Of a DNA stretch of 64,000 nt, positions 6,007 to 58,212 are shown in pieces. Under the pieces are notes generated by a model. That model ran no database searches. It was not told the DNA's origin and saw nothing but the letters and a program-made list of their open reading frames with translations. The position numbers were made by a program, and so were the translations under genes. Location of the stretch: the NCBI RefSeq assembly GCF_003315205.1, contig NZ_QNRR01000011.1:124001-188000 (forward strand), in the 5' to 3' direction. Numbering within the stretch: the stretch's first letter is position 1; the number at the start of each line of letters is the position of its first letter. Origin of the DNA: Roseimicrobium gellanilyticum (GTDB lineage: Bacteria; Verrucomicrobiota; Verrucomicrobiia; Verrucomicrobiales; Verrucomicrobiaceae).

Positions 6007-6007
6007 T

Positions 6008-29700: not shown

Positions 29701-30120
29701 AATTTCAACGGTGCCGTCTGGGTTGGCTACATCGCGCTCTTCGGAACCGCCGTCCAGACCGGGGTCGTCATGGTCGTGTATCTGGAGGAAACCGTGAAAG
29801 CTCGCATGGCCGCACTCGGCAGCGCATTCTCATACGCCGACCTCGTCCAGGCCGTGAAGGACGGCGCCCGCCTCCGCCTCCGCCCAAAAGTGATGACCGT
29901 CGCCACCATCGTCGCATCCCTGATGCCCATCATGTGGAGCCACCGCCAGGGCGCCGAAGTCATGAAGCCCCTGGCGACTCCCGTGATCGGCGGCATGATT
30001 TCCAGCCTTGTTCACATCCTCATTGTCACCCCGGTGATTTTCCTGTGGCTTCGAAGCAGGGAGTTGAGAAAAGGCCATCAATTGCCATCGACCCGAGTGG
30101 ACAGTATACCAAAAGGTTGA
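26716..30120 (+). CDS. cusA-like: CusA-type Cu/Ag RND pump, set 3
   Basis: 1134 residues from a GTG that overlaps the adaptor stop. TM4 motif TGIAIAIGVLVDAAIVVTEN and RHCE are of the monovalent-cation class. Methionines sit at the three positions expected for the CusA substrate site: LLYMPVMMPKTG, PTEMLETTIMLKPE, and ENRILMLYTGIRAQVG. An unusual low-complexity Gly/Ala/Met insertion (GMSAASASPAVGGMSGGMAG and onwards, encoded at about 29205-29320) lengthens a periplasmic domain by roughly 35 residues relative to typical CusA. Exports Cu(I)/Ag(I) from the periplasm (family knowledge). Confidence 0.9.
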   Translation: MIERIIEWSLKNRFLVACGALLLIAMGVRAIYLTPVDAIPDLTENQVLVYADWMGRSPQEVEDQVTFPLSTGLQGLAGVKEVRATSMFGFSLVTIIFEDKVDTYFARARVLERLNYLQGSMPEGVQPQLGPDASGLGWVYQYYFDVDPAQAANGGYDLSQLRSLQDWYVRYQLASVQGVAEVASIGGFVKQYQVELSSTKMRMANVTLMDVMTAVQNANLNVGGKVVEENGAEFVLRGIGLVTSPEDLELVTVKSVEGTPVYLKDIATVQIGGDFRRGALDLNGQEAVGGTVVMRTGENAKAVIERIKEKIEQIAPSLPPGVTIKPFYDRSELIDNTIGTLKHALTEEIILVTLAHIIFLWHFRSILIVTLPLPVSILISFLLMKEFGITSNIMSLTGIAIAIGVLVDAAIVVTENVIRHCERAEEEKGGRLSSQETWDVTLAACKQVGRPIFFAMAIIILAFVPVFALAGQEGKLFHPLAFTKTFAMIGSTLLAVTLVPVLCSLLVRGPFHSEEHNIVMKFLLRIYEPALDWALDHRKTVIMTALFILSVALLTAFGLPRTTVKQIRDAGHPRLADVLTGFGKEFMPPLNEGSLLYMPVMMPKTGLSEIQRVMSWQDKIIAATPEVETVAGKLGRFETATDPAPTEMLETTIMLKPEYIPDGRWRVKRNPAWREGMTVEKLKAELTEKMKQVPGYVPAFLQPIENRILMLYTGIRAQVGVKIYGDNLDKIQRKAFEVERLINSIEGASGVSPSRVQGKPYLNIQVDRQAMARYGLSAKDVLDAVEIAIGGKNASTTIEGRQRFPIQIRVERGERDDIEKLSSILIAARPGMSAASASPAVGGMSGGMAGGGSPAAPVGGMATAGSEQPIPYIPLGMVAKITREVGANEIASENGRLRSYVQANVQDRDLGGFVQEIEQKLKSINWEGMTYKMTGEYENQRRFVQTMQVVFPIVLLIIFVLLYIVYHSALEAAHVMLAVPFALSGGVLLQKLLGYNFNGAVWVGYIALFGTAVQTGVVMVVYLEETVKARMAALGSAFSYADLVQAVKDGARLRLRPKVMTVATIVASLMPIMWSHRQGAEVMKPLATPVIGGMISSLVHILIVTPVIFLWLRSRELRKGHQLPSTRVDSIPKG

Positions 30121-30151
30121 CGCCGGCCGGAGTGGTCATCACATGTCAAAA

Positions 30152-31591
30152 CTATACGTAAAACTTATATTTGGGATGGGGAGTGATGTTTTCCGGAACC
30201 TCGCGGAGGATGTCGCCCACCAATCGAGCGAAGCGGACCGTTATTGGCATAAGCCCATACATGCGAGCCGAGTTCCAATTCATTTTCGTGAGGGCAAGCG
30301 CCTCCTTTAGCAACTGCGAACGAGGAGTGTCTCCGATGTGGTCGGCCAATTCAAGGGGGCTGGGAACGTGTCCTTGCGGAAATCGCCCGAGGAAGGGGAT
30401 GTAGCCCGTGGTATAGAGGAAAGAAACGTCGCCAAGAGTAAACGACGTCCCTCGCAAAGGCGGGTAGGAGCCAGCGCGAATTAAACGGATCTCGCTGGTT
30501 GGGCGAAGAGCTACCAAATCACATTGGGACACCCGTCGTAGAGACCTTTGGAAACCCCGAGTTTCGTCCGGGTCGAACCGCGAGGTCTTATGGACCACGA
30601 TTCGAGTAGGTCGTTGATGACGAAGTTTCTCATACTGCTCCAACACGTCATCAATCAATTGCGCCGCCAAATCCTCTGTCAGGTGAGGGGTCTTCCCCTG
30701 TTTCTGCTCGTCCCAATTGAAGTTGTGCCCCCTGAGTACCAGCCCTTCTCCGTTCTCGTCAAACGCCTGTACGAGGCTTGTCCGCAGCGTGGAAGCCTGT
30801 CCAAGCGGTCTGTAGAAACTGACGCCAACGAAGCAGCTGGAGGCCGGCAGATCGGCGGGTCCCCATGGCAGGCCATCGACTTTAAAATAGAGACCGTTGA
30901 AGAGATTCCATGCCCGCTCAGAAAGGTGATCGAGTTCACGGGAGCTAGCTTCTACATTCAACGTCGATTCCTGAATGATCTGGGTTGCGGTGTTGTACTG
31001 CATCGCCCTTGCTTTGAAGGCACGTCGCAGATCGCGATGGACCATTCCCACACCCTTCTCGTGGTAGTCAGCAACGCGGCACTCCTTGAACATTTCTGGA
31101 GGGACCACAAGCACCACGTAGTTCAGCGGGTGATCGTGCTCTTGTGTCATGAGCCGAAGCTTTTCCGTGAGCAGCTCCAACGTTGCGTCGAAACGTTGTT
31201 TGCTGTCGCGAATCTTAAGAAGGTCACCGAGTTCAGTTTGGGTGATCTTTTCGTTAAAGCTATCATCCATCTTGAGGGTGAAGCGGTAACCTCTGTCAAT
31301 CTTGCATCCCGGGAACGGAGCATGCTGATCGTCGCCATCAAGACCATCGCAGCAGGTCTCATAAAACCGCATCGCCTTCTGAATTCCTTCGCCCGTGCCA
31401 ATGAATCCAGCGTGCACCTCGGTCTTGTGCCGGGATGTGCCCACCGAAGCTGGACCATAGAGAGGGATTCCAACTTTGGGATCCACGTGCATCGAGCCAC
31501 CTCCGAATGTCAAAGACGGCTCTTCGAACCACTCTGATGAGGCTGTGATCTGTTTGAGCTGCTTCTGCTGAAAGGGTTTAGTCGGCCTCAT
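30152..31591 (-). CDS. Short prokaryotic Argonaute (MID-PIWI), catalytically inactive
   Basis: 479 residues from ATG 31591, preceded by GAGGAGG 9 nt upstream and overlapping the partner's 3' end by 14 nt (an open frame extends back to 31684 but without a good start). MID domain about 100-215: HPLNYVVLVVPPEMF and the 5'-end-binding helix region FKARAMQYNTATQIIQEST. PIWI about 225-479: ERAWNLFNGLYFKVDGLPW, CFVGVSFYRP, RPTRIVVHKTSRF, LTKMNWNS..., and the typical C-terminus HPKYKFYV. The catalytic Asp positions are replaced (GVS for GxD; HKTSRF for the xRDG segment), so it should bind guide/target without cutting, as in other short pAgos that signal to an APAZ partner. No N or PAZ domain. Confidence 0.85.
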   Translation of the reverse strand: MRPTKPFQQKQLKQITASSEWFEEPSLTFGGGSMHVDPKVGIPLYGPASVGTSRHKTEVHAGFIGTGEGIQKAMRFYETCCDGLDGDDQHAPFPGCKIDRGYRFTLKMDDSFNEKITQTELGDLLKIRDSKQRFDATLELLTEKLRLMTQEHDHPLNYVVLVVPPEMFKECRVADYHEKGVGMVHRDLRRAFKARAMQYNTATQIIQESTLNVEASSRELDHLSERAWNLFNGLYFKVDGLPWGPADLPASSCFVGVSFYRPLGQASTLRTSLVQAFDENGEGLVLRGHNFNWDEQKQGKTPHLTEDLAAQLIDDVLEQYEKLRHQRPTRIVVHKTSRFDPDETRGFQRSLRRVSQCDLVALRPTSEIRLIRAGSYPPLRGTSFTLGDVSFLYTTGYIPFLGRFPQGHVPSPLELADHIGDTPRSQLLKEALALTKMNWNSARMYGLMPITVRFARLVGDILREVPENITPHPKYKFYV

Positions 31592-32876
31592 CGTCGGAAT
31601 CCTCCTCATCTGTCTCTTCTTCCTCGTCATCTTGCCCAGAGGACGCTTGCTGAAGTTCACCAAAGGTGAAAAGGTCTTCATCAAAGACTTGGTTGGTAAA
31701 TGCCTTGGCGTCGGCTGGAATGCCCTCCCACTCTACATCGAGGGACAATAGCTGTGTTTCAACAATGGCGAACTGTGCCCCAAAGTTCAGGATGAAGCGC
31801 GGTTTTCCGCCAGACAAGAAGTCACGCCAAAAGTGGACTTCGCTCAAATAGCCGTCGTTGAACATCCTGGCTTTCAACTTCGTGACTTTGCGGCCGACGA
31901 ATTTTGAATTGTAAGGAGTCACTCCATCTTTGGTGACGTGCCGTTCGGGGCGAATGGTGAAGCACCATTGCTCAGCAGCGAGTTGATGGAAGCTGAGGTC
32001 GGCGGCCAGGTGAAGCCAGTGCCTTTTCCCTTCGCCTGTTTTCCGCGTTTTTGGATTCCACACGACATTGCGAGACTCGTTGCGTCCAGTGAGAGTGCGA
32101 TATGGTTCAACTCGTTCGGTTTCGGCTTCTGTCGGGACAAAGTAGAAGCGGTGATGTTCTCGGTCGAAGAAGACTCTCTTTCGTCCGCAGTGCTTCGCTA
32201 TCGCGCTATTCAGTAAACTTACGAATCGTCGCTTCCCCTCAGCCTCCGTGCACAAATCTCTCACGGGAATACGGATCGCTCCAACCGGGTTCGCAACTTT
32301 CGCGAAGGGGTTCTCATAGGCGCGAAGATCCTGGAAGGCGAACAGCCGGTTCTCTCTAAGAATGAAAGGGACGAACTCCTCTCGGCTGATGCTCATGTAA
32401 TCAATTTCCTTCTTCACTTCGTCCTTCTGCTTCTCTGTGTAGTCGGTTTCGGCAGAATAAACGTACCTTGGCAACTGCGAAACGTGAAGGAGCGTGCTGT
32501 GCAACGATTCCTTTGTTTTGGCTGTTGGCGCTTTTGTCTGAGGAAGACGGGTTGCCTTTGCGATTTTGGCCTCGTGGTCTGCCTTCATCTGCCGCAGAAC
32601 CTGCACACTGTAGACCTGGGGATTACGGTCGACTACGGTGTGGTGAGGAGAACATAACAAGAGAATATTCGTGGCCTTATTACGTTGCTCATCACTCATC
32701 TTCTCTCGACCACGAGGTCCCTGTCGTTGCTCTGCAACAATGTGAGCGAGTTCGCCAATAATCGTGGCATCGGATCCGGCATCGTAGTTGACAAGCGATA
32801 CTCCGCAGCCCGGAAAGGCGCACACGCCACCCGAAGCTAGGCAAACCAATTTCTGCTCTGGAAGCGGAATTGACAT
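31578..32876 (-). CDS. HNH nuclease-APAZ fusion, partner of the short Argonaute
   Basis: 432 residues. N-terminal HNH/Zn finger: C19 and C24 (CAFPGC), H45 (GELAHIVAE), N70, then C75, H78, H79 and D83 (NILLLCSPHHTVVD). From about 105 to 405 a region without HNH features (LPRYVYSAETDYTEKQKDE, PVGAIRIPVRDLCTEAEGK, RHWLHLAADLSFHQLAAEQ, VHFWRDFLSGGKPRFILNF) fits the APAZ domain that pairs with short pAgos. The last about 20 residues are almost all Asp/Glu. Predicted role: the Ago senses invader nucleic acid and releases HNH cleavage, killing the cell or the invader. The nuclease type is what distinguishes it from SIR2-, TIR- and DREN-APAZ systems. Confidence 0.85.
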   Translation of the reverse strand: MSIPLPEQKLVCLASGGVCAFPGCGVSLVNYDAGSDATIIGELAHIVAEQRQGPRGREKMSDEQRNKATNILLLCSPHHTVVDRNPQVYSVQVLRQMKADHEAKIAKATRLPQTKAPTAKTKESLHSTLLHVSQLPRYVYSAETDYTEKQKDEVKKEIDYMSISREEFVPFILRENRLFAFQDLRAYENPFAKVANPVGAIRIPVRDLCTEAEGKRRFVSLLNSAIAKHCGRKRVFFDREHHRFYFVPTEAETERVEPYRTLTGRNESRNVVWNPKTRKTGEGKRHWLHLAADLSFHQLAAEQWCFTIRPERHVTKDGVTPYNSKFVGRKVTKLKARMFNDGYLSEVHFWRDFLSGGKPRFILNFGAQFAIVETQLLSLDVEWEGIPADAKAFTNQVFDEDLFTFGELQQASSGQDDEEEETDEEDSDDEAD

Positions 32877-32883
32877 GTCATCG

Positions 32884-32889
32884 ATTATA
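32884..32889 (-). promoter_or_regulatory. -10 element of the HNH-APAZ/Argonaute operon
   Basis: A perfect TATAAT on the minus strand ends 7 nt before the HNH-APAZ ATG, with TTGAAA 15 nt upstream as a possible short-spaced -35. This predicts transcription starting at or next to the start codon, i.e. a leaderless mRNA; no Shine-Dalgarno is visible. Confidence 0.4.
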
Positions 32890-33019
32890 ATCTTTTTTCG
32901 ACAATTTCAAAAAGTTAATAATCGCCAATGGCAGACTCTCTTCCACTTCTGTGGAACGCCGGAGCGCACTATGGACTAGGAAGCCTAGGGATGAGAAGCT
33001 GCTTAGGGATCGCACAGCT

Positions 33020-33050
33020 AAAAGAAAAGCCCCGCTGATTCAGCGAAGCT
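33020..33050 (-). terminator. Rho-independent terminator after the DUF932 gene
   Basis: On the minus strand CGCTGA-A-TCAGCG with flanking GC pairs is followed by GGGGCTTTTCTTTT; it is 15-45 nt beyond the DUF932 stop and closes the minus-strand array before the Argonaute locus. Confidence 0.7.
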
Positions 33051-33065
33051 CTCCTTGAGGGCACC

Positions 33066-33863
33066 TCAGTTGAGCCCGAGCCCAACGTGGGTGTCCAGCA
33101 AGCCGTGGAGTGCTTCCGTGCGTTTCGGAAGCTCAGCCAGGTTGCCATCTTTTAACGATTCCGTGAATGCGTTGAAGAGCGACCAAACATTGCGTGCCTC
33201 GAATGCAGCATGCCGAGGTTCTCGCCATTCATGAAGAACGGAGGGAATGAGGCGATTACTGCAGACGCCGACATCCGTGGCCCGGATGACGAGGTCGTGG
33301 GCGCTGGCGTCGTCGATATCGGCCTCTTTGTAGGCGCCGATACGCTTGTCTTGATCGTGCCATTTGGCCATGAGGCGACCCACGGCCCGCTCAGTGAGTT
33401 GGGGCAGATCGCGCATGATGAAGCGCGTGTGCTTCCTGGCGAATTTGACCTCTCCGGAGAAGCTGAGGTTGTCGCAGCAAAAGACAGTGGCGCCAGCGAC
33501 GATACCCGCGGGGAATGTCTTGTCATGGCTGTTACGTAGGCCTAGCACCCAGCAGTAGTCCTGGCTGGAACTGCGGCCCATGATTTCCATGAGACCAAAG
33601 TAGCGATTTCCTTCAGCATCCAGGCTGTGGGCTACACTGCCCAAGCGAAGGTTAGAGGCTGCCAGAGTCCGCTCGATGGTTTGAACCAGTGTGGCATGGG
33701 GGATGGGTTGCCAGGTCGCAGTTGATGGCGGGGTGCGAACTCTGGCAACTTCATCCAATGTGGCGAGGCGGGCACCGCAATGGAGGATGAGATTTGGATG
33801 GTGTGGCCGGGCCTGAACGGGAGGCGCCGTGACGACCGGGAGTGCGAGGGCATTGTCATTCAT
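33066..33863 (-). CDS. DUF932-family protein
   Basis: 265 residues from ATG 33863, with AAAGGA about 9 nt upstream. Characteristic DUF932 phrases: LGSVAHSLDAEGNRYFGLME, YCWVLGLRNSHDKTFPAGI, VFCCDNLSFSGEVKFARKH and RFIMRDLP. The family is common on plasmids and phages, and its biochemical function is not established. A hairpin separates it from the clamp gene upstream, so it has its own expression unit. Confidence 0.75.
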   Translation of the reverse strand: MNDNALALPVVTAPPVQARPHHPNLILHCGARLATLDEVARVRTPPSTATWQPIPHATLVQTIERTLAASNLRLGSVAHSLDAEGNRYFGLMEIMGRSSSQDYCWVLGLRNSHDKTFPAGIVAGATVFCCDNLSFSGEVKFARKHTRFIMRDLPQLTERAVGRLMAKWHDQDKRIGAYKEADIDDASAHDLVIRATDVGVCSNRLIPSVLHEWREPRHAAFEARNVWSLFNAFTESLKDGNLAELPKRTEALHGLLDTHVGLGLN

Positions 33864-33902
33864 GATGGTGGTTCCTTTCTTATGGTGAGACTCAAATGAA
33901 GA

Positions 33903-33931
33903 GGCCCATGCAGCGGGTTGCTGCATGGGCC
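33903..33931 (-). terminator. Hairpin between the clamp and DUF932 genes
   Basis: GGCCCATGCAGC (33903-33914) and GCTGCATGGGCC (33920-33931) pair perfectly across a 5-nt loop. On the minus strand it is followed by TCTTCATTTGAG, and then by the AAAGGA leader of the DUF932 gene. Confidence 0.6.
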
Positions 33932-33963
33932 GGAGCGGTGGTTGCGGAGTTGAGCGAAGTCGG

Positions 33964-35463
33964 TCAGAACTGGACAGCTTGCAAAGCACGCAGGCGTTGG
34001 CGGAATGTGTGGAGTTCCTTGGTGCCTGCCTTTTGTTCCCGCAGCGCGATCCGCAGCTTGGTGCCGAGGTCGCGCAGTTTGTCCTGGGACTGGCTGTGGT
34101 AGGCGCGAAGTTCGTCCACCAGTTCGATGGCGTGTTCCATCTGACTCTTGTTGGCCGAGTTTGGCGAGGCATTGTGATCGCCGCTTTGGAGAGAGGCCAC
34201 GTTTGGTGGCGTCTCGAGCGATGCTGGGCTGGCCTCAGTCTGTTCTAGCGCAGGTGTGGGCGTTGCTTGTGGTATCGTGGCCTCCGCCTCCCTTGCTGGC
34301 ACTTCTGATGTACTGGGCGTAGTTTCGCTCGGACCGTTCGGTCGCAAGGGCATGACGATCATCTGGCGCCCCCCTTCGGTGAACCGCAGGGGTGAGATTT
34401 CGTCGATGAGGCCAATGGTGCAAAGACCGAAGCCCAGCGCCTTGGCCAGGAATCGCCGATCCACAAAGACGCGCTGGTCCGGACCTTTTGCCTCTACGTT
34501 GGGCAGGGGCACCCGGGTCCAGTCTCGGTCTTCAGGCGCTTTAGCCAGCAAGGCGGCTTCGCCATGGTCCCAGGCAATGCCGATGGTCTGATGCAGTGGC
34601 TCATGGCAGGGCAGGCGATTGATGGCCTGTTGTACCTGTTCCACAGTGTCTGCACCGAGGACCAGGGTGGTCTTGGTGGACGCTGCGTCCGGTACAGCAA
34701 CTTTCCACTCTGGGTAGTTGCCGGTCAGTTGCCGGGTGATGAAGCGCCAACGGCGGCTACTCAGCTGCACCCAGCCTGGGACGTCCGTCTCTTGCGAGGG
34801 AGTCACCTTGAGCCGCCAGTTGCCGTCGAGGGCAAAGTCCCGCCAGCCCAAAAACTTGTGCTTGGGCAGCACCATGGATTGGGTGAGCGGCAGTGTGAAT
34901 GAGTTGCTGCTGTAGAGATGTTTGCCATCGGTGCCCACCACGTAGTGAGCCCCAGCTTTGGAAACGTCAATGCAGGCGCTTTGGAGGATGTAGCGGCCGG
35001 GATCGCCGCTGGAACACTCCAGCGCCTCCAGCAGGGATTGGCGGAGGGTTTCAGGGAGCGGGATGGGCTCGCCTTTGAGCTTTGGCACTTCGGGAAACTC
35101 ACCGACCGGGAAGGCCCGGATCTTGGCCTCGCCGGTCTGTCCTGCCAGGGGGAACCTGAGCAGCGCAGTGTCTTCTGAGGCCGGTTCCAGTTGGAGGGTT
35201 TCGCCCTTGCCGCAGTTCTTGCTGAGACGCTGGAGGTCTTCGAAGGAAACCACCATGGCGCAGGGACTGCCCTGACCGGGCTGTTCGAGGCGCATGGTGA
35301 CGAACCGATCGAGGTCAGTGGCGGTGAGGCACACCCAGCCGTCGGCGGTGCGTTCCACCTGGATGCCGCCGAGGATGGGCAGGGTAGTGTGGCGATTGAT
35401 GACTTTGCTCAGGCCGGTGAGCGCGGGTTTGAGTTCATTGAGGGGAAGGGAAATCGGATTCAT
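33964..35463 (-). CDS. DnaN-like sliding-clamp paralogue with coiled-coil extension
   Basis: 499 residues from ATG 35463 (AAAGGACAACC leader); the longer open frame to 35958 runs through the terminator and the neighbouring gene. Residues 1-370 follow the beta-clamp pattern: LPLNELKPALTGLSKVINRH, TLPILGGIQVE, DLDRFVTMRL, GRYILQSACID, VGTDGKHLYSS, LTGNYPEW and a clamp-like end RFTEGGRQMIVMPLRP. A Pro/Ser/Thr linker and a coiled-coil tail (MEHAIELVDELRAYHSQSQD...LRDLGTKLRIAL) add about 125 residues not found in housekeeping DnaN. A mobile-element or specialised repair clamp is likely. Confidence is high for the clamp fold, low for its partner. Confidence 0.75.
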   Translation of the reverse strand: MNPISLPLNELKPALTGLSKVINRHTTLPILGGIQVERTADGWVCLTATDLDRFVTMRLEQPGQGSPCAMVVSFEDLQRLSKNCGKGETLQLEPASEDTALLRFPLAGQTGEAKIRAFPVGEFPEVPKLKGEPIPLPETLRQSLLEALECSSGDPGRYILQSACIDVSKAGAHYVVGTDGKHLYSSNSFTLPLTQSMVLPKHKFLGWRDFALDGNWRLKVTPSQETDVPGWVQLSSRRWRFITRQLTGNYPEWKVAVPDAASTKTTLVLGADTVEQVQQAINRLPCHEPLHQTIGIAWDHGEAALLAKAPEDRDWTRVPLPNVEAKGPDQRVFVDRRFLAKALGFGLCTIGLIDEISPLRFTEGGRQMIVMPLRPNGPSETTPSTSEVPAREAEATIPQATPTPALEQTEASPASLETPPNVASLQSGDHNASPNSANKSQMEHAIELVDELRAYHSQSQDKLRDLGTKLRIALREQKAGTKELHTFRQRLRALQAVQF

Positions 35464-35517
35464 GAGGTTGTCCTTTCTGTTTGGTTGAATTGAGGGGTCG
35501 GGTGTGGGCACAAAAAC

Positions 35518-35547
35518 GCCGATGCCACCGCGAAGGACGGCATCGGC
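35518..35547 (-). terminator. Rho-independent terminator after the membrane-protein pair
   Basis: GCCGATGCC (35518-35526) pairs with GGCATCGGC (35539-35547); on the minus strand GTTTTTG follows the stem. It separates the gene ending at 35574 from the clamp gene starting at 35463. Confidence 0.75.
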
Positions 35548-35573
35548 AGTGGTAGGGAACCGCGAGGTTGGGT

Positions 35574-36011
35574 TCAGTGGCGCAGGAGCCAGCGCAGGAG
35601 CAGGCCGCCTGCCACGGCAATGAGCACGCCTGCACTGAGGCGTCCCGGAATCTGCGCGAGATTGGAGCAGATCTGCAGCAGGGCGGCTGACCAGGTAGTG
35701 AGATGTTCCAGGAATACTGCCACCAAGGGACTGATGCACAGTAGTGGCACCGCAGTGAACAGTGCCAGCAGCAGGCAGCGGCGGCACCATTCGCGAAGCA
35801 GGCCGTTGGGGGACAGCCAGAACTCGAAGCGATGCAGCGTGTGATGCAGGACCGTGGTCGAGCGAGCCAGATGGCCTTGTCGGGGAAGCGAGCGATCCAC
35901 GCGTGGTGGTGCCAGCGGTATTGCCGACAATTTCCACCGCGAGATGGCCAGAGACCACTCTTTCCGATTCGAAACCTCGTGGGGAGGTTCGTTGTCAGGA
36001 GACGTTGTCAT
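35574..36011 (-). CDS. Membrane protein of unknown function
   Basis: 145 residues from ATG 36011. Charged N-terminal half (residues 1-75), then two hydrophobic segments (LLLALFTAVPLLCISPLVAVFL and AGVLIAVAGGLLLRWLL) joined by a short loop with cysteines. The start lies inside the upstream lipoprotein gene (17-nt overlap), so the two are translationally coupled and probably act together. No family recognised. Confidence 0.5.
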   Translation of the reverse strand: MTTSPDNEPPHEVSNRKEWSLAISRWKLSAIPLAPPRVDRSLPRQGHLARSTTVLHHTLHRFEFWLSPNGLLREWCRRCLLLALFTAVPLLCISPLVAVFLEHLTTWSAALLQICSNLAQIPGRLSAGVLIAVAGGLLLRWLLRH

Positions 36012-36351
36012 GGCTGTCTTCCGCCTCCTTTCGAGTATCGGAGCCAAGGCTCATGCCGATGAGCAGCGCCAGCACCGTGGTGACGCCGGCGATGACAGTC
36101 AGGGTCTGCCACCGGCTGCGCCAGGACTGCTCCAGGGCGAGTCGCTGCTCTGTTTTTTGGTGCAGTTCCTTTTGCGCCTGGAGTTGTTCCTCCAGGATCG
36201 TGTTCTGTTGAACGAGGTTCTCCACCGAGATTGCCGGGATGCTGGAAACTCCATGGTCCCTGGACTCCGGCGGCGTCCGGCGTCCGCACGAGGTCACGAG
36301 GCATATCAGCAGGAGCCAAAGGATGGGATGAATGATGCAGGTAATCTTCAT
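35995..36351 (-). CDS. Lipoprotein with coiled coil and C-terminal TM helix
   Basis: 118 residues: lipoprotein signal with lipobox LVTSC (IIHPILWLLLICLVTSC), a predicted coiled coil (VENLVQQNTILEEQLQAQKE ... HQKTEQRLALEQSW), then a TM helix (LTVIAGVTTVLALLIGMSLG). A lipid anchor at one end and a membrane helix at the other resembles spanin-like or phage-associated envelope proteins, but nothing else supports lysis here. Overlaps the downstream gene. Confidence 0.5.
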   Translation of the reverse strand: MKITCIIHPILWLLLICLVTSCGRRTPPESRDHGVSSIPAISVENLVQQNTILEEQLQAQKELHQKTEQRLALEQSWRSRWQTLTVIAGVTTVLALLIGMSLGSDTRKEAEDSHDNVS

Positions 36352-36432
36352 GGCTATGCAGATGGATGAGGTTAAACCCGCCTCCCAGTGGAAGACGGGC
36401 TTGGCATGTGGATGTGAGCAGCGAGGTGCCCT

Positions 36433-37509
36433 TCAGACCGTAACCGGCTCGGGTTTGTATTTGAGCTGGGCGGTAGTGCACTCTTCCGCGCGGATGTCCT
36501 CCCTTGGACCGAGATACACTGGCTGGTAGATGGAGCCGGACTCACGGAAGGCGTACAGGTAGCGGCATTCCACAATGGTGCCCGGAGCCGGGACATTGTG
36601 GTTGGGTGGAATAGTCACGTTGCCCGCGGACACGACGCGGTCCCCATCAAAGAGGATCAGGGACACGCTGCGTTTGGGGTTGGGCTTGGTGACGATGAAG
36701 GAGGCTGTCTCGCAGAACTTGTACTTGAGCTGCATTCCTCCCGAGGCGGGACGGCCCGGAGTGTACGGAGCCATCATGTGTCTGAAGACCGCCCCTTCGC
36801 GATGCTCGCGCTGAAGCCGCGTGAACATTTCCCGCTTGGCACTGAGCTGGCAGGCGATGTCCACGAGTTTGAAGTGCGGAGGAATGGAGACCTTGAGGAA
36901 CTTGCTCAGACGCACGAAGCGTTCGGCGTAGCCCTCATGGCGCAGATCCTCGCTGTGGAGGCTCAGGGCATCGAACACGTGAAGCACGTCGCCCAGACCT
37001 TCTCCATCGAGGATGAAGTCGGCAGTGCAAGCCAGGGCGCTCTCCACCATGGTTTGGGGAAGAGCGGTTTCCTGGCCGAGGCGATTGATGCCGGTGATGG
37101 TGGTGCCTTCCTTGCGGATGAGGAGACGCCGGCCATCGATTTTCTCCTGCAGCCACCAGTCCGGGTGAGTGAGCAGTTCCTGGACTTTCTCCTCCTCAAC
37201 GGGATTGAGGAGTTGGCAATGGATGCCGGTAGGTGCTTTGGCGGTTGCCGGGAGGGTGGCGGCGGTCACGCCGCCGTTGCCATCAGCTACCAGATAGCCT
37301 TTGGCAGTTTTCTCGCGCACCAACTTGTCGAAGGTGCGCTTGGCTTCGTCGTGCCTGACTGGTGTGGGTGTCTTGGTGCCTGCGTTGAGGGTCGAACCGC
37401 GACGGCCATAGGCGAAGGTGACGACATATCCGCCGTCCTTGGGCACAATGGAGGCCTGGTAGACTTTGTCAGAGGCGCCTTCGCGGTAGTAGAGGGAGAT
37501 GCTTTCCAT
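36433..37509 (-). CDS. WGR domain-ATP-dependent DNA ligase fusion
   Basis: 358 residues from ATG 37509 (AAAGGACTCCAACCC leader). Residues 1-75 are a WGR domain (LYYREGASDKVYQASIV, VVTFAYGRRGSTLNAGTKT), the fold that binds DNA ends in PARPs. From about 100 comes an ATP-dependent ligase core: motif I EKIDGRRLLI with the adenylated Lys, motif III-like ADFILDGEGL, motif V-like GGMQLKYKF and an OB part (VVSAGNVTIPPN). About 120 residues shorter than typical LigD ligases. Suggests end recognition plus ligation, and fits with the neighbouring nuclease and clamp. Confidence 0.8.
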   Translation of the reverse strand: MESISLYYREGASDKVYQASIVPKDGGYVVTFAYGRRGSTLNAGTKTPTPVRHDEAKRTFDKLVREKTAKGYLVADGNGGVTAATLPATAKAPTGIHCQLLNPVEEEKVQELLTHPDWWLQEKIDGRRLLIRKEGTTITGINRLGQETALPQTMVESALACTADFILDGEGLGDVLHVFDALSLHSEDLRHEGYAERFVRLSKFLKVSIPPHFKLVDIACQLSAKREMFTRLQREHREGAVFRHMMAPYTPGRPASGGMQLKYKFCETASFIVTKPNPKRSVSLILFDGDRVVSAGNVTIPPNHNVPAPGTIVECRYLYAFRESGSIYQPVYLGPREDIRAEECTTAQLKYKPEPVTV

Positions 37510-37563
37510 GGGTTGGAGTCCTTTCTGTCGAGGTTTGGAGTTTGAGTTTCGGGGTGAAAACAG

Positions 37564-37598
37564 AGCGACCCGCACACCGGAAAGGCGTGCGGGTCGCT
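37564..37598 (-). terminator. Terminator after the Cas4-like nuclease gene
   Basis: AGCGACCCGCAC (37564-37575) pairs with GTGCGGGTCGCT (37587-37598); on the minus strand CTGTTTTC follows the stem. The WGR-ligase leader lies just beyond. Confidence 0.75.
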
Positions 37599-37624
37599 TG
37601 TTGGTTGAGGTGGATGGTCGTTCG

Positions 37625-38461
37625 CTACTTCCAGCGCCGGCATTCGTTGAAGAACTCACAGCTGGCGCACTGCATCCCGGGCGAGGGAACGAAGTCGCCA
37701 CGCTGGAGGCCGGTCTGGTACGCGTCCATGAGATGGAACAGCCGGGTTTGCTGGTCGTCACTCATGGGTGGCATGGGAGTGATCACCACCTTGGGGTTCT
37801 TGAGTTTGACCAGGTGATGCAGTTCCAGCCCCAGCTCGCGCTGCCCGGTATTGTGCCGGTACAGCACGGCGTAGCCGCTGGTCTGCACTTCGTGGGTGTG
37901 AGCCACCTTCTCCGGGTTGGGGGTGGTGGATGAGGTCTTGTAGTCGATGATGCGGCGTTGTAGGACCAAATCGAGGATGCCCACCAGACGAGGCAGACCG
38001 TGCTGGCGCAGGTCTGCTTCGATAGACACCTCGATTGCATCCGGCTTGAGATCCTCCGGGAGGGGATGCTCCCGGAGGTACGTCTCGAATAGGCGCCAGC
38101 CGATGGCCTTCTCCTCGGCCTCGGAGCTGGCCCAGTCCACCTTGCCCTCGCTCTCATCCGTCCACGCTGCAGAGTATGCGTCGTGGAGGGCTTTGAGTGA
38201 GAGTGGCTGCTGGAGCCAGCGGGCTCGGTTGCGGGCTTTGAGCGCTACATGCACGGCATTGCCGACATGCAGGGCTGGAGTCTTGGGCTTGGGAATGGAT
38301 AGCACGTATCTAAAGAAGAACTTCAACCGGCATTGCAGGAACAGCGTCAGCCGGGAAGCTGACACGGCCTGCAGGAGTTCAGCGATGATGTCTTTTTCGG
38401 CCCGTGTGCTTGCCTCCGGGGTGGAGACAGGCGTCTTGGGCTGGGTGGTGCGGGCACTCAT
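37625..38461 (-). CDS. RecB/Cas4-like PD-(D/E)XK nuclease with Cys cluster
   Basis: 278 residues from ATG 38461, overlapping the upstream gene by ATGA. ASRLTLFLQCRLKFFFRYV and HVGNAVHVALKARNRA are the N-terminal Cys and motif I of the Cas4/RecB family. Catalytic LPRLVGILDLVLQRRIIDYKTSS has the D...DYK arrangement, and Q-motif-like VQTSGYAVLYR follows. The C-terminus MQCASCEFFNECRRW carries three Cys that, with the N-terminal one, would bind a 4Fe-4S cluster. Likely a DNA exonuclease working with its coupled partner (38458-39051). No cas genes or CRISPR are present, so it is not part of adaptation. Confidence 0.75.
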   Translation of the reverse strand: MSARTTQPKTPVSTPEASTRAEKDIIAELLQAVSASRLTLFLQCRLKFFFRYVLSIPKPKTPALHVGNAVHVALKARNRARWLQQPLSLKALHDAYSAAWTDESEGKVDWASSEAEEKAIGWRLFETYLREHPLPEDLKPDAIEVSIEADLRQHGLPRLVGILDLVLQRRIIDYKTSSTTPNPEKVAHTHEVQTSGYAVLYRHNTGQRELGLELHHLVKLKNPKVVITPMPPMSDDQQTRLFHLMDAYQTGLQRGDFVPSPGMQCASCEFFNECRRWK

Positions 38462-39051
38462 GATGAGACGGCAGGTTCGTGTTGGGATGATGACGGCTGC
38501 CTGCGGCGGTGGGTCTGACGGGGCTGACCCACCTTCGCGAGCAGTTCGTCCAAGAGCTGGGAGGCCTGCATCTTGTTGAGCTCCCGGACACCGATGCCGA
38601 AGAACTGGCGGGCCAGATCTTCTACCCCTTGCTTGTCGAGGTTGTGCTCGTTGACCAGGCGCAGGATGAACCCGCGCTGGCCATCGGTGCAGTTCCATCG
38701 CTCGCTGCTCGCATTGCCATTGCTGGCCCGAGAGTGACCGTTGACGCTGTTTCCACGGCCATTCCCGTTTCGGGCATGGCCGTTTGTGTGCCCATGGGCA
38801 TGCCCGGTTCGGTGGCCATTGTTCCCCGATTGGTCCACGGCGTCGATGCCGTAGAACTCCCCGGGAACAAAGCCGACCTGCTGGATCTCATGATCAACCG
38901 ATTGCTGAAGAAGCTGGTAGAGCTTCTGGCATTCGGCCTCCACTTGGGAGAGATCGGTGAGTTCCACTTCAACAGAAGCGCTGAAGCTGTGAGAGCTGAA
39001 GCCAGGAAGGCCGAGTTTCTTGCTGTAGTTGGCGGACAGTTTGACTGCCAT
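38458..39051 (-). CDS. Partner of the Cas4-like nuclease with His/Asn/Gly linker
   Basis: 197 residues from ATG 39051 (AAAGGAAACCAACC leader). The N-terminal about 70 residues are mixed alpha/beta (FSASVEVELTDLSQVEAECQ), then a striking linker of GH/NGH repeats (about 85-115), then a helical C-terminal domain (CTDGQRGFILRLVNEHNLDK, GVRELNKMQASQLLDELL). ASQLLDELL-type domains occur at the end of DNA annealing/recombination proteins; this is suggestive only. Coupled to the nuclease gene by ATGA, so the two probably form a complex. Confidence 0.55.
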   Translation of the reverse strand: MAVKLSANYSKKLGLPGFSSHSFSASVEVELTDLSQVEAECQKLYQLLQQSVDHEIQQVGFVPGEFYGIDAVDQSGNNGHRTGHAHGHTNGHARNGNGRGNSVNGHSRASNGNASSERWNCTDGQRGFILRLVNEHNLDKQGVEDLARQFFGIGVRELNKMQASQLLDELLAKVGQPRQTHRRRQPSSSQHEPAVSS

Positions 39052-39113
39052 GAGGTTGGTTTCCTTTCGATTGGGTTTGGTGTGGGATGAACCTTCCACC
39101 CCAGAAACGACAA

Positions 39114-39134
39114 AACCCGGCGCGGGGCCGGGTT
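39114..39134 (-). terminator. Hairpin after the ribbon-helix-helix-like gene
   Basis: AACCCGGC (39114-39121) pairs with GCCGGGTT (39127-39134) around 5 nt; on the minus strand TTGTCG follows. It precedes the leader of the gene starting at 39051. Confidence 0.55.
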
Positions 39135-39165
39135 CGGAGGTGAGGGATGGAAGGAACAAAACTGG

Positions 39166-39390
39166 CTACCGCTTGGAAGCGGTGTCAGCGTGGTCTGGAT
39201 GCTCCTGTATTGCGGATGAGGTCTGTGCTTGCATTTGGGCCAACTGCCATCCCGTAGTCCCTTGAAGGGCCACGGTCAGCAGCTCGTCCACGAGGCGAGT
39301 CATCGGCTTGCGCCGGTGTCGAGCTTCGTGGTAGAGAGCACAGACCACATTCCGCGAGATGCAGGGCACATAGTGCCGGGGACTGGACAT
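39166..39390 (-). CDS. Ribbon-helix-helix-like small DNA-binding protein
   Basis: 74 residues from ATG 39390. The core HYVPCISRNVVCALYHEARH, PMTRLVDELLTVAL and GWQLAQ matches the beta-strand plus two helices of Arc/MetJ-type proteins. It is the first gene of the minus-strand array, 182 nt from the divergent arsR1, so it could be a regulator of the array. An in-frame ATG at 39423 is less likely because it lacks the family's usual N-terminus. Confidence 0.5.
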   Translation of the reverse strand: MSSPRHYVPCISRNVVCALYHEARHRRKPMTRLVDELLTVALQGTTGWQLAQMQAQTSSAIQEHPDHADTASKR

Positions 39391-39527
39391 GGTGAATGAA
39401 GCAACCGGTAGGAGGTGCTTCACAAGTATATGACACGGCGAAGCAGCCTATTGCAGTGAGGTCCTCAGGCCGGACCGGCTGAAGTGGCGACACCAGTGCA
39501 TTCTGACTTTTTTGTAACATTTCCAGC

Positions 39528-39566
39528 CGATTCGAGATTTGACGAATCGTAAATTACCGATACGAC
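39528..39566 (+). promoter_or_regulatory. arsR1 promoter and operator
   Basis: CGATTCG (39528-39534) and CGAATCG (39543-39549) form a perfect inverted repeat overlapping a TTGACG -35 (39539-39544); TACGAC at 39561 is a plausible -10 with 16-nt spacing. TTACCGATAC at 39554-39563 is repeated exactly before arsR3 (44906-44915). Confidence 0.5.
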
Positions 39567-39572
39567 TCAGGC

Positions 39573-39989
39573 ATGGAAAGGTCGATTGCCGTCGCTCATG
39601 CCCTGGCTGATGAAACTCGCTGGCGCATCGCAGCGCTTATGACTGACGAAGCACTGTGCGTCTGCGAGCTGGCCGACGTGCTCGAAATGGCCCAGTCCAC
39701 CGTGTCCAGTCACTTGCAGGTGATGCGAAAGGGAGGGCTCGTCACTGTGGAGAAGGAAGACAAGTGGGCCTACTATCAACTGTCTGAAGAAGTGCTGCCC
39801 GTATGGAATGCGCTGCGAGCACTCGAAGCAGAAAAGGCCGACAAAACCTTGGACCGCGATCGCAAAAAGGCCATTGCGCGGTTGGCATTAAGAGGGCGCA
39901 GCGAATGCAAAGGGCCCCGTCGCAGCATTCCTCCCCTAAGAACTGCGCCCCAGCTCGGCACCGGCATGCGCAAGGCGCAGCCCGCTTGA
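39573..39989 (+). CDS. arsR: ArsR-family arsenic-responsive repressor 1
   Basis: 138 residues. Winged-helix HTH: DETRWRIAALMTDEALCVCEL, where the CxC at 29/31 is in the arsenite-sensing helix; AQSTVSSHLQVMRKGGLV recognition helix; wing KWAYYQL. The C-terminal about 45 residues are basic and proline-rich, longer than usual. First gene of arsR-gapdh-arsJ. A repressor released by As(III) is expected, binding its own promoter. Confidence 0.88.
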   Translation: MERSIAVAHALADETRWRIAALMTDEALCVCELADVLEMAQSTVSSHLQVMRKGGLVTVEKEDKWAYYQLSEEVLPVWNALRALEAEKADKTLDRDRKKAIARLALRGRSECKGPRRSIPPLRTAPQLGTGMRKAQPA

Positions 39990-40013
39990 TTTTCAATCTC
40001 TCACACAACATCT

Positions 40014-41024
40014 ATGGCAACACGCATCGGCATCAATGGTTTCGGCAGAATGGGACGTCTCGCGTTACGCGCAGGCTGGGCCTGGCCTGAAGTAGAGTTT
40101 GCTCACATCAATGAAATCGGTGGCGACGGAGCCACTTCTGCACACCTGCTCTATTTTGACTCCGTTCACGGCCGGTGGGATCGCGAATGTTCTGGCGACG
40201 CCGACAATGTCTTCATCGACGGCAAGACGGTCAGCCACACCAGCAAAAAAGACTTTTCCGAAGTGCCGTGGGGTGATCTCGGGATCGATATTGTGCTTGA
40301 GGCCAGCGGAAAGTTCCGCAAACAAGAACAGCTGGAAGCTTACTTCAAGGCCGGCGTGAAGAAGGTCATCGTCGCGGCTCCAGTAAACACCGGTGCACTG
40401 AACATCGTGATGGGCGTGAATGATCATCTTTACGAGCCCGATGAGCATCACCTGCTGACTGCCGCTTCCTGCACGACCAACTGCCTAGCCCCCGTGGTCA
40501 AAGTGATCCACGAAGGATTGGGGATTCGCCACGGGATGATCACGACACTGCACGACATCACGAATACCCAGTCGATACTCGACAAGCCTCACAAAGACCT
40601 CAGGAGAGCACGTGCCTCCAGCATGTCACTCATTCCCACGACGACTGGTTCTGCGACAGCTATCGGCATGATTTTCCCTGAACTGCTTGGGAAACTGGAC
40701 GGTGTGGCAGTTCGCGTTCCGCTCGCCAATGCATCGCTCACGGATTGCGTTTTTGAGGTCAGTCGCAAGACCACTGTTGCTGAAGTAAATTCACTTCTCG
40801 AGCAAGCGGCAAATGGGCCTCTCAAAGGAATCCTCGGCTATGAAACGCGGCCCCTGGTGTCGATTGATTACAAAGACGATCCACGCTCTTCTATCATTGA
40901 TGCGCTGTCGACCATGGTGACCAACGGCACCCAAGTAAAAATCCTCGCCTGGTACGACAATGAGTGGGGTTACGCCAACCGCTATGCGGAACTGGCGCGC
41001 AAGGTTGCATCGTCACTCTCCTAA
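40014..41024 (+). CDS. Arsenate-associated glyceraldehyde-3-phosphate dehydrogenase
   Basis: 336 residues. N-terminal NAD-binding INGFGRMGR, catalytic Cys in [32 protein letters not shown], and C-terminal [16 protein letters not shown]. Lies directly upstream of arsJ (10 nt), the arrangement in which this GAPDH turns arsenate plus glyceraldehyde-3-phosphate into 1-arseno-3-phosphoglycerate, which ArsJ exports. The whole-protein pattern is a GAPDH of the ars-associated type; a housekeeping role is unlikely in this context. Confidence 0.9.
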
Positions 41025-41033
41025 GCCTTCGGT

Positions 41034-42299
41034 ATGACGAAGAACGCGGACAACAGCAATGTGCGAAACTACGCTGTAGTCACGGCAGCGTATTGGGCGG
41101 ACACACTGGCAGACGGCGCAATCCGTATGCTGGTGCTGTTCTACTTCTACCAACTTGGCTACACGGCTCTTCAGGTCGCTTCGCTGTTTCTGTTCTACGA
41201 GGTCTTCGGCATCATCACCAACCTCTGCGGAGGATTTCTGGCAACTCGCTTTGGTCTCAAGAGCACATTGTTCATGGGACTCGGCACGCAGGTGGCGGCG
41301 CTCCTCATGCTTGGCCTGATGCCGGCCAGCTCTCTCACCGTTGCGTACGTCATGGTGTCGCAAGCTCTCTCTGGCATTGCCAAAGACCTTACGAAGATGA
41401 GCAGCAAAAGTGCGGTCAAGCTCGTTGCCGGTGAGAGCCAAGGGAGGCTTTACAAATGGGTCGCCATCCTCACTGGGAGCAAGAACGCCCTGAAAGGCGT
41501 CGGATTCTTCCTGGGAGGGGTCATGCTGTCTTTCATTGGCTTTCAGCCTGCGATCTGGACTCTCGCCTCAATCGTCGCTGCAGCCATGCTATTGGCTGCA
41601 CTGCTCATGAAAGGCAGCCTTGGCGTCTCCAACAAAAAGGTAAAGTTCCGTCAGATCTTCTCCCCAGACCGGAAGGTCAATATTCTTGCGCTGGCGAGGA
41701 TGTTCCTCTTCGGTGCCCGCGATGTCTGGTTTGTGGTCGGGGTGCCGGTGTTTCTCTCGTCCGTTCTCGGATGGAAGTTTTGGCAGTCTGGCGGTTTCAT
41801 GGCCCTGTGGGTGATTGGTTACGGGATTGTACAGGCGTCGGCTCCAGCCATCGTGGGAAAGCCGAGGCAGCAGAAGTCCGCGCAGCCCGATGGCGGAACC
41901 GCGACTTTGCTTGCATTCGTGTTGGCATTTCTACCCGCGATCATCGCAGCTGCTCTGTGGCAGAATTTCAGCACGACATTTGTCGTTGTCGGCGGGCTCA
42001 TAGCTTTCGGCATCATTTTTGCCCTCAATTCCGCAGTTCACTCCTACCTCATACTGGCATACACCGATAGCGACAAGGTCGCAATGAATGTAGGACTTTA
42101 CTACATGGCCAACGCCTGCGGTCGACTTGGCGGGACAATTCTCTCGGGCCTCCTTTACCAGCTGGGTGCCGCCCGCTCAGTGAACGGCGGACTAATCTGG
42201 TGCCTGATTGCCTCGGCTATTCTCGTCGCCAGCGCCGGCCTGTTGTCGATCTGGCTTCCCCGGGGAGGCGTGAAAGGGACCGTAGCTGAAGCAGGATAA
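41034..42299 (+). CDS. arsJ: ArsJ organoarsenical efflux permease (MFS)
   Basis: 421 residues, about 12 TM helices. Start YAVVTAAYWADTLADGAIRM and FYFYQLGYTALQVASLFLFY are strongly ArsJ-like; FKL/FRQIFSPDRKVNILALAR marks the central loop and GLYYMANACGRLGGTILSGL the C-terminal half. With the GAPDH upstream it forms the two-protein arsenate resistance route that needs no reduction step. Confidence 0.9.
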   Translation: MTKNADNSNVRNYAVVTAAYWADTLADGAIRMLVLFYFYQLGYTALQVASLFLFYEVFGIITNLCGGFLATRFGLKSTLFMGLGTQVAALLMLGLMPASSLTVAYVMVSQALSGIAKDLTKMSSKSAVKLVAGESQGRLYKWVAILTGSKNALKGVGFFLGGVMLSFIGFQPAIWTLASIVAAAMLLAALLMKGSLGVSNKKVKFRQIFSPDRKVNILALARMFLFGARDVWFVVGVPVFLSSVLGWKFWQSGGFMALWVIGYGIVQASAPAIVGKPRQQKSAQPDGGTATLLAFVLAFLPAIIAAALWQNFSTTFVVVGGLIAFGIIFALNSAVHSYLILAYTDSDKVAMNVGLYYMANACGRLGGTILSGLLYQLGAARSVNGGLIWCLIASAILVASAGLLSIWLPRGGVKGTVAEAG

Positions 42300-42321
42300 T
42301 TTCCTTAAAAAAGGCAGCATC

Positions 42322-42336
42322 CAATGACGGTCATTG
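42322..42336 (+). promoter_or_regulatory. arsR2 operator
   Basis: CAATGAC-G-GTCATTG is a perfect inverted repeat 21 nt upstream of the arsR2 ATG and partly overlaps TTGACG (42334-42339), a likely promoter element. Confidence 0.5.
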
Positions 42337-42356
42337 ACGTAATGTAAAAAGACGTT

Positions 42357-42779
42357 ATGATGAAGTCCGTCATGAAAGACCTAATCGCATTCAACCACGC
42401 ACTCTCCGACGACAAACGCTGGAGAATCCTGCAACTCATTATGAGTGAGGCACTTTGCGTGTGCGAGATCGCGGACATCATGAAGATGCCCCAGTCATCC
42501 GTCTCAAGTCACGTCCAGGTGATCAAAAAAGCCGACCTGCTGGACAGCGAGCGGCGCGAGAAGTGGATCTACTACCGGGTGCAGAGCAAGCACCGAGCTC
42601 TTCTCAATTCGATTGCCAATTACTTCGGCGTTTCGCCAGAGTCCGAACCGGTGATGCGGGCGGACGCGAAACATGCCGAAAAGCGCCTCGCCAAACGTGA
42701 GGCAAGCTGCTGCCCAAGACCGGAAGAATTAGCCAGTAAAATCCCCATTAAGAAACCAACGAAAGCAGGAAAGCCATGA
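42357..42779 (+). CDS. arsR: ArsR-family repressor 2
   Basis: 140 residues. DDKRWRILQLIMSEALCVCEI with CxC at 34/36, MPQSSVSSHVQVIKKADLLD recognition helix, KWIYYRV wing. An extra C-terminal CC pair (REASCCPRPEE) may bind metal too. Resembles ArsR1 closely in the helix-turn-helix (ALCVCE..AD....PQSSVSSH), suggesting duplication. Overlaps the DUF6428 gene (ATGA) and heads the acr3-arsC operon. ATG at 42372 is an alternative start. Confidence 0.88.
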   Translation: MMKSVMKDLIAFNHALSDDKRWRILQLIMSEALCVCEIADIMKMPQSSVSSHVQVIKKADLLDSERREKWIYYRVQSKHRALLNSIANYFGVSPESEPVMRADAKHAEKRLAKREASCCPRPEELASKIPIKKPTKAGKP

Positions 42780-43249: not shown

Positions 43250-43271
43250 ACCGAACCCCGGAGAATCACAA

Positions 43272-57774: not shown

Positions 57775-58136
57775 ACGCATGCGGACTGCCACCTTTGGTA
57801 TGTAACGTTGAAGCCTGGCGAAGCTACGACCTTGCTGCCGCGACGATCATAAAGCCGCATAGCCGCAATCGAGAAGTCCCCTAGCCGTTCCTGTACCCTT
57901 GCAATATGGGTCCAATGGTCGAGTCTATTTGTGGCTGCAGGTAGCACTCGAAGTCGGTGGTGCCGGTGACTGTCTGAAGGACAATTGAGGCGACAGTCAA
58001 CGCTGGTCGGTTGACCACGCTGTGCCACCTCGCACAACGCCATTGACTACTAATCGCACGTCAAAAGTGTCCAAATTGTGTCCAACACATGCGATCCATA
58101 TTCCCCTCATGGACGCCATAACGTGCTCATTCTGAA
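57775..58136. other. Non-coding stretch between the MFS gene and the tRNA
   Basis: About 360 nt without a convincing gene, repeat or hairpin; short open frames here lack family features. It separates the arsenic/phosphate island from the tRNA. Confidence 0.5.
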
Positions 58137-58212
58137 TGGAGCCAGTTGTCGGACTCGAACCGACGACCTGCTGATTACAAATCAGCTGCTCTACCAACTG
58201 AGCTAAACTGGC
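58137..58212 (-). tRNA. trnT: tRNA-Thr (anticodon TGT)
   Basis: On the minus strand a full 76-nt cloverleaf: acceptor GCCAGTT/AACTGGC, D-arm with AGCTCAGTTGGTAGAGC, anticodon arm GCTGA-TTTGTAA-TCAGC (anticodon TGT), T-arm with GGTTCGAGTCC, and encoded CCA at 58137-58139. The long plus-strand frames through it are artefacts. tRNA 3' ends are common integration sites, but no direct repeat of it is visible in the window. Confidence 0.95.

Follow-up and report, generated by a model that had tools for sequence, protein, structure and literature searches.

A conserved gene array with hairpins between its units, apparently a Red-like recombination set, in integrative islands of Verrucomicrobiaceae

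The 64,000-nt stretch of the Roseimicrobium gellanilyticum genome analysed here, henceforth the window, carries at positions 33066-39390 an array of eight genes, all on the minus strand. It belongs to a conserved co-directional gene set, most units of which are preceded by a conserved terminator-shaped hairpin followed by T-rich sequence and by a leader rich in C and A. In order of transcription the genes encode a small ribbon-helix-helix (RHH)-like protein, a 197-aa protein, a PD-(D/E)XK nuclease (exo), a WGR-ligase, two envelope-like proteins (env1 and env2), a sliding clamp and a DUF932 protein (Table 1). Several copies of the array lie in tyrosine-recombinase islands of Verrucomicrobiaceae and, where both ends of such an island were found, they lie in tRNA genes. 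The array is apparently a DNA-recombination set resembling that of phage lambda Red, with a ligase and a sliding clamp in addition. Our preferred reading of the whole, which we put at an even chance, is that of a Red-like recombination set housed in islands and transcribed from a single promoter, RNA polymerase reading through the internal terminators when the set is switched on. In what follows, C11 is the window's contig, C3, C7, C12, C20 and C26 are other contigs, and L and G numbers denote loci and genomes.

The frequency of the hairpins was assessed against that in surrounding genes, a hairpin being called at a score of at least 20 and the main comparison taking gaps of 60-160 bp. In the window and related loci a strong hairpin occupies 77 of 86 cassette gaps, in which redundant loci are counted more than once, while only four of 39 neighbouring co-directional gaps have one (Fisher p 3e-18). 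Removal of near-identical gaps leaves 65 of 74, and five cassettes fetched later have hairpins in 18 of 21 gaps, counted here over the initial 160 nt of every gap that measures at least 40 nt. The idea that such hairpins are a general habit of these genomes, the array being nothing special, draws on those four neighbouring gaps, three of which score at least 25; we consider it extremely unlikely given the contrast at score 20, for all that the neighbouring sample numbers 39.

Individually, five of the window's six hairpins exceed the best of 20 dinucleotide shuffles, an analysis that covers gaps of 20-420 bp in the window and its relatives; the one following the RHH gene does not (22.8 against a best shuffle of 26.0). 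Over 28000-44000 a consensus scanner lists 19 sites where 13.5 would be expected (sd 3.9), a small excess, and conservation in relatives is a stronger case for the hairpins than this weak scanner. The hairpin preceding the ligase gene, aligned from 14 loci (10 distinct rows), is paired in every cell. It has changes on both sides at five of its 14 pairs, a number reached by one of 500 shuffles, and a covariation score reached by none of the 500.

The hairpins have the shape of intrinsic terminators, a GC-rich stem followed by a T tract. Among the 90 that score at least 20 and lie no more than 130 nt from the next start, the eight nucleotides after the stem are 61% T, with at least four T in 75. 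The distance from hairpin to start, cassette gene starts having been assigned by script, has a median of 35 nt (range 14-101) and is 40 nt or less in 55 of the 90. A role purely as terminator of the upstream gene was considered and rejected, since the likeness among hairpins tracks the downstream gene slightly more (mean 0.34 vs 0.24, baseline 0.23); this tracking comes mostly from the ligase, and the loci are not independent. Small open reading frames (ORFs) behind a fixed hairpin count, in turn, against a strict downstream-gene rule.

Upstream of the first gene lies a conserved promoter-like element, TGCAAT followed after about 17-19 nt by a TATA-like sequence. Of two patterns describing it, both derived from the very loci in which they were counted, one precedes the RHH gene in 33 of 49 loci and the other in 29 (shuffled means 1.9 and 0.1, respectively), and neither occurs in any of 124 stretches before other cassette genes. 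The sequence TGGTATAAT stands upstream of the RHH gene in four of the five later copies. An extra small membrane-protein-like frame was also seen just before the RHH gene in L043, L026, L047 and L045.

These results bear on a proposal made in an initial annotation of the window, which had taken the units for independently expressed modules, each with its own leader and terminator. The presence of a hairpin and leader at most units fits that proposal, as do the gain and loss of units that the annotation had anticipated and the reordering of units, all of them seen in our comparison of gene order among the loci. However, the median of 35 nt that separates hairpin and start would hardly accommodate a usual promoter in most gaps. 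A consensus promoter scan found nothing in the window's gaps, although it also misses the element before the RHH gene, and that element precedes none of 124 other cassette genes, a count confined to promoters of this type lying outside the upstream genes. Since there is little room behind the hairpins and the element stands only before the first gene, independent expression is doubtful, and we regard a separate promoter and terminator for each module as improbable.

The AAAGGA leader noted in the same annotation does precede four of the eight window genes but is not general, being found at 36 of 250 cassette genes. The general leader feature is instead a C/A-rich, G-poor composition: the last 25 nt before cassette starts contain 38% A, 41% C, 9% G and 13% T, as against 24, 26, 33 and 18% in 158 flank genes, a comparison biased towards G in the flanks since the caller used there requires a Shine-Dalgarno-like motif. 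A Shine-Dalgarno-like tetramer occurs in 57 of 183 cassette genes (exo and env2 excluded). The sense strand of the cassettes has more C than G (mean GC skew -0.13 across 41 loci) and mostly also more A than T; the skew is often stronger than in flank genes, and L069, L070 and L073 have a positive GC skew.

Could the hairpins act as DNA rather than RNA, as sites recognised in single-stranded form by their structure and at which units are exchanged, as at integron attC sites? Structure is conserved while sequence varies, units come and go, and recombination enzymes are encoded in the same array, all as this would predict. Yet attC-like pairs of R'' and R' (RYYYAAC/GTTRRRY) occur in only one of 121 gaps, with 0.97 expected by chance, and the one-sided T-rich tracts and C/A leaders point to RNA. 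Furthermore, in the aligned pairs L053/L058 and L024/L041 small ORFs sit behind a shared hairpin and have none of their own. We therefore consider such exchange very unlikely and reject an integron reading, for which an integron integrase was not searched as such. By the same count, the att-like repeat suspected at the leaders was not found as far as tested; att repeats occur at the island ends.

The resemblance to lambda Red is centred on the second and third genes. The gene for the 197-aa protein overlaps that for the nuclease by ATGA in 35 of 38 loci, and 37 of 38 nuclease genes contain the D/E-x-K motif, with a C-terminal Cys cluster likewise in 37. Such a cluster in the Cas4/AddB family may hold an iron-sulphur centre. 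The model of the 197-aa protein has a mean pLDDT of 67, rising to about 90 at residues 121-170. When it was compared with the PDB using Foldseek, ranks 1-6 were all the C-terminal domain of Red-beta (probability 0.95-1.00), in structures solved in complex with lambda exonuclease (6m9k) or a peptide of SSB (8tg7, 8tfu). VIA aligned 58-59 residues with the same domain (Z 8.0, 7.8 and 7.5; rmsd 1.6-2.1, the next unrelated row having Z 5.4), although in helical bundles Z below about 13 can reflect a common arrangement. The pairing with a nuclease gene offers independent support for the likeness, and the modelled C-terminal domain of Red-beta kind together with the adjacent nuclease gene makes the 197-aa protein a candidate single-strand annealing protein (SSAP).

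Against this stand the E-values of the Red-beta matches (0.14-0.44), their restriction to a single small helical domain, and the N-terminal half of the protein, a β-hairpin and helix (block pLDDT 62-82) for which no convincing structural match was obtained. Neither does any sequence-family match back an SSAP. Family searches gave only a Pfam match under the cut-off (E 0.044), and in profile searches the PDB matches up to E 10 contained no chain of Red-beta, nor did any consistent PHROG emerge. ERF-named entries appear among weak viral structure matches, with low TM-scores. The available text of one study gives the annealing domain of Red-beta as about 180 residues and describes Red-beta lacking its C-terminal domain as able to anneal but not to recombine (PMC5052646). 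The N-terminal part of the 197-aa protein is smaller than that annealing domain, and SSAP activity is for this reason only a proposal.

The WGR-ligase matches both the WGR domain and the ligase core in family searches. The clamp as a single sequence falls under the Pfam and NCBIfam cut-offs, but solved beta clamps are matched by the profile of its alignment (A5) with an E-value of 4.5e-25, and the match, at profile positions 24-366, extends across the clamp domains expected of a DnaN sliding clamp. Family searches gave no match for env2 or for the RHH-like protein, whose name is a reading of its sequence. As to the DUF932 protein, Foldseek found nothing for its model at E 0.001 (best 0.098), and VIA placed the C-terminal domain of TnsE top (Z 7.3, rmsd 3.0, 113 residues), tied with the unrelated Fbxo7. 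Likeness to TnsE is suggestive because TnsE acts together with the sliding clamp, but we treat it as a weak lead. Taken together, the one-strand array is much as the initial annotation had read it, with clamp, WGR-ligase, Cas4-like nuclease and partner, DUF932, envelope and putative RHH genes and hairpins located at the listed unit boundaries, and the gene set does suit break processing and recombination. The observation in that annotation is confirmed and its interpretation partly supported.

The same genome holds a second copy on C12 (6,441 alignment columns, 88.65% identity, ending at 33014 and 39441) and two further cassettes, on C3 and C7, neither with a ligase match. When genome_contigs was scanned with an alignment built on the 197-aa protein, 51 loci were obtained, 49 of which carry names of genera that we take to be Verrucomicrobia, the family name used here being likewise our own assignment. 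The two named outside the phylum (Bacteroidetes L040 and Robiginitomaculum L068) are possibly mis-binned contigs of metagenome-assembled genomes (MAGs). L054 was excluded from the scripts because its contig is that of L010; in L064 and L050 the SSAP frame, as read by the script, is interrupted by a stop, and the match in L074 spans only 16 residues. The usual order, RHH-SSAP-exo-env-WGR-clamp-DUF932, is mostly retained in loci many of which end at contig boundaries; some lack the ligase or the envelope genes or have them swapped, and others contain additional small ORFs. Among 68 genomes searched from the window's family, the profile of the 197-aa protein finds matches at E 1e-8 in 34, the window's own included; there are up to five matches per genome, a few of them partial. 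When 288 genomes of the phylum were searched with the WGR-ligase, five had a match, one to the WGR domain alone.

Downstream of DUF932 lies a T-rich motif containing TTAGCT (33014-33030 in the window), present no more than 120 bp after DUF932 in 16 of 21 loci and no more than 160 bp after it in four of the five later ones. The alignment of the window with C12 stops there and the other loci read diverge beyond it. The cargo on that side includes genes for HNH and short Argonaute proteins in the window, while L010 has an IetS-like and L026 an RmrA-like gene. A gene of the DNA polymerase A family was noted upstream of the cassette in G217 (L010:819-2717). Our literature search, which covered titles and abstract openings and left most subscription papers outside, found no description of the operon among the papers listed.

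The initial annotation had suggested a plasmid or integrative element, and it is the second that the surroundings support. The last 49 nt of the window's tRNA-Thr, plus 10 nt, recur on the same contig (59 bp, 98.3%) about 5.3 kb to the left of the window, adjoining a tyrosine recombinase (L017:14975-16162, PF00589). An island of about 63.5 kb, covering about 58 of the window's 64 kb, is thus inserted in tRNA-Thr, with a direct repeat of the tRNA 3′ end at both its ends and the recombinase beside one. In G350, a one-contig genome of the same genus, a 66-bp copy of tRNA-Leu sequence (98.5%) lies about 88.8 kb from the gene, with the cassette inside, one recombinase beside the copy and another by tRNA-Leu. 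The C12 copy is accompanied by a tRNA-Ser fragment next to a recombinase, 79 bp of which are identical (100%) to a stretch over the tRNA-Ser of C20, on two contigs in this case. In three MAGs the tRNA next to the cassette is partly repeated (79, 81 and 59 bp) on a different contig, adjoining a recombinase, from which we infer that cassette and recombinase share an island across the two contigs.

In four genomes a recombinase domain lies 2.9-42.4 kb from all eight cassettes (G000 four, G355 two, G350 and G217 one each). No second att copy was found for G217 in the stretches examined, nor any tRNA or att pair in those of G355. In G294 (L041) an 88% tRNA copy is found on C26, a contig with no recombinase listed, on which the stretch in question was examined for tRNAs only. 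Origin in a plasmid or a virus was rejected: plasmids gave one distant match for the clamp, two for DUF932 and none for the SSAP-like protein, which is also without a match in viral_contigs. The WGR-ligase matches 22 plasmid records and one phage record, each at less than 60% identity.

In our preferred reading the 197-aa partner and the nuclease would form a pair like Red-beta and lambda exo, resecting and annealing DNA ends, and the ligase and clamp would complete the joint, for recombination or for replication of the excised island. With less assurance, transcription would begin at the single promoter-like site before the first gene, and the hairpins would be intrinsic terminators which, for as long as the island stays integrated, shield the genes from read-through that starts at the tRNA or at other promoters of the host. 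Once the operon is switched on they might be read through, possibly by antitermination as in Tn916. A hairpin between most units suggests that mobile DNA holds this gene set under tight transcriptional control. Moreover, in 11 of the 49 loci with enough sequence the first gene follows a co-directional tRNA at a distance of 178-418 bp, where read-through is likely.

A number of findings weigh against this scheme. No tRNA lies within 460 bp upstream in the remaining 38 loci, and in the window 18.7 kb separate the cassette from tRNA-Thr; relative to their recombinases, the cassette on C12 is directed away and that on C11 towards. Given the distant tRNAs and differing orientations, insulation from tRNA transcription is not general. 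The two promoter-like patterns are absent from 16 and 20 of the 49 loci. T tracts are poorer at the hairpins that separate ligase from clamp (mean 3.9 of 8) and poor at three between exo and env2 (2.0 of 8). Finally, neither Rfam, with no match over 32800-39700, nor the alignment of 5′ untranslated regions (5'UTRs), which yields only weak structure, revealed an antitermination factor or RNA element.

Graded expression offers a plainer rival to antitermination. Here the array is one operon in which leaky terminators, or hairpins that stabilise or process the mRNA, set the ratios of the products, with no antitermination and no particular link to integration; we hold this to be possible, at clearly less than an even chance. 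It would account for T tracts that differ by boundary (means 2.0-5.5 of 8), and C/A-rich, G-poor leaders would suit independent initiation. The grouping of SSAP-exo, env1-env2, small ORF-DUF932 and lipoprotein-clamp pairs, each behind one common hairpin, also agrees with it. Stoichiometry alone, however, poorly explains why a strong T-tailed hairpin stands no more than 90 nt before the RHH gene itself in nine of 49 loci.

Table 1. Features of the array and of the island end within the window
Feature	Position	Strand	Remarks
Promoter-like element (TGCAAT / TATACT) and 5'UTR inverted repeat	39391..39455	-	Upstream of first gene
Small RHH-like protein	39166..39390	-	First gene; RHH from sequence reading
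Terminator-shaped hairpin before 197-aa (SSAP-like) gene	39113..39135	-	Retained in C12 copy
197-aa protein (HNGH)	38458..39051	-	SSAP candidate; C-terminal domain modelled like that of lambda Red-beta
PD-(D/E)XK nuclease	37625..38461	-	PF12705, Cas4-like; start overlaps upstream stop (ATGA)
Hairpin before WGR-ligase	37564..37598	-	
WGR domain and ATP-dependent ligase core	36433..37509	-	
Hairpin before env1	about 36374..36402	-	Absent from the initial annotation
env1, lipoprotein-like small protein	35995..36351	-	Family matches all under curated cut-offs
env2, membrane-protein-like	35574..36011	-	No family match
Hairpin before clamp	35517..35548	-	
Beta sliding clamp homologue	33964..35463	-	With C-terminal extension
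Hairpin before DUF932	33903..33931	-	
DUF932 protein	33066..33863	-	Final gene of conserved array
Last hairpin (about 33022-33056, after DUF932) and TTTAGCT motif	33014..33056	-	Alignment with C12 stops here
tRNA-Thr (58137-58212) and one island att repeat (58127-58185)	58127..58212	-	Other copy at C11:118671-118729, outside the window

The island carries varied other genes. Directly downstream of the cassette (30152-32876, minus strand) lies a short-pAgo defence pair. It consists of the short Argonaute (PADLOC pAgo_I, E 4.7e-143) and the HNH protein, the latter matching Argonaute-associated (PNTD1-PNTD2) and HNH effector models; an Argonaute relative also adjoins the cassette in L073. Between tRNA-Thr and the cassette (39573-44812, plus strand) lie genes that read as arsenic resistance-like, namely two ArsR-like regulators, GAPDH, transporters and a small phosphatase-like protein. 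Three large genes appear to encode RND-type efflux pumps (5975-9172, 13219-16389 and 26680-30120, plus strand), and a group II intron reverse transcriptase is found near the recombinase end of the island (L017:17548-19890).

We advance more tentatively, as doubtful in its full form, the view that these are new islands of Verrucomicrobiaceae with a miniature annealase-nuclease pair of a new family, and that during integration their whole operon is silenced by terminators at nearly all its units, passable only for a modified, terminator-resistant RNA polymerase. If so, they would provide a tractable integrated element in which terminators lock the element's own recombination enzymes, beyond the Tn916 family for which such locking has been shown. 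They would also provide a small candidate annealase, not found in the viral contigs searched and matching half of the family's genomes that were searched.

Comparison with known systems shows both likenesses and differences. As in lambda Red and other phage SSAP-exonuclease pairs, the two genes are adjacent and overlapping, the nuclease is of the PD-(D/E)XK kind, and the partner has a three-helix C-terminal domain modelled as the Red-beta domain that was solved with lambda exo and an SSB peptide. Unlike there, the partner measures about 200 aa and contains no recognised annealing domain, the nuclease is a PF12705 member with Cas4-like matches, and the pair sits in islands, with no relative in viral_contigs. 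A relative of the WGR-ligase adjoins PRTRC genes on a Rhodanobacter plasmid, but the array proteins have no PRTRC family match. Integron arrays likewise have genes in a row with hairpins between, whereas here attC-like sites are not above chance and a promoter-like element precedes the first gene only.

Tycheposons are integrated in tRNA genes by a tyrosine recombinase and have a 3′-end repeat and variable cargo. The present islands share all these traits with them and with tRNA-integrated islands at large, but differ in having this recombination gene set as their common core. The regulation proposed here is closest to that of Tn916, in which, in the available text of one paper, a terminator (T1) insulates the DNA-processing genes of an element inserted behind a host promoter; once the element is excised, RNA polymerase is enabled by canT, in all likelihood an RNA, to get past terminators (PMC11658703). 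As far as that text describes it, Tn916 is likewise an integrated element with intrinsic terminators in its DNA-processing operon and insertion downstream of host promoters; in our islands, by contrast, there is a hairpin at most unit boundaries, and neither Rfam nor the 5'UTR alignment brought out an antiterminator.

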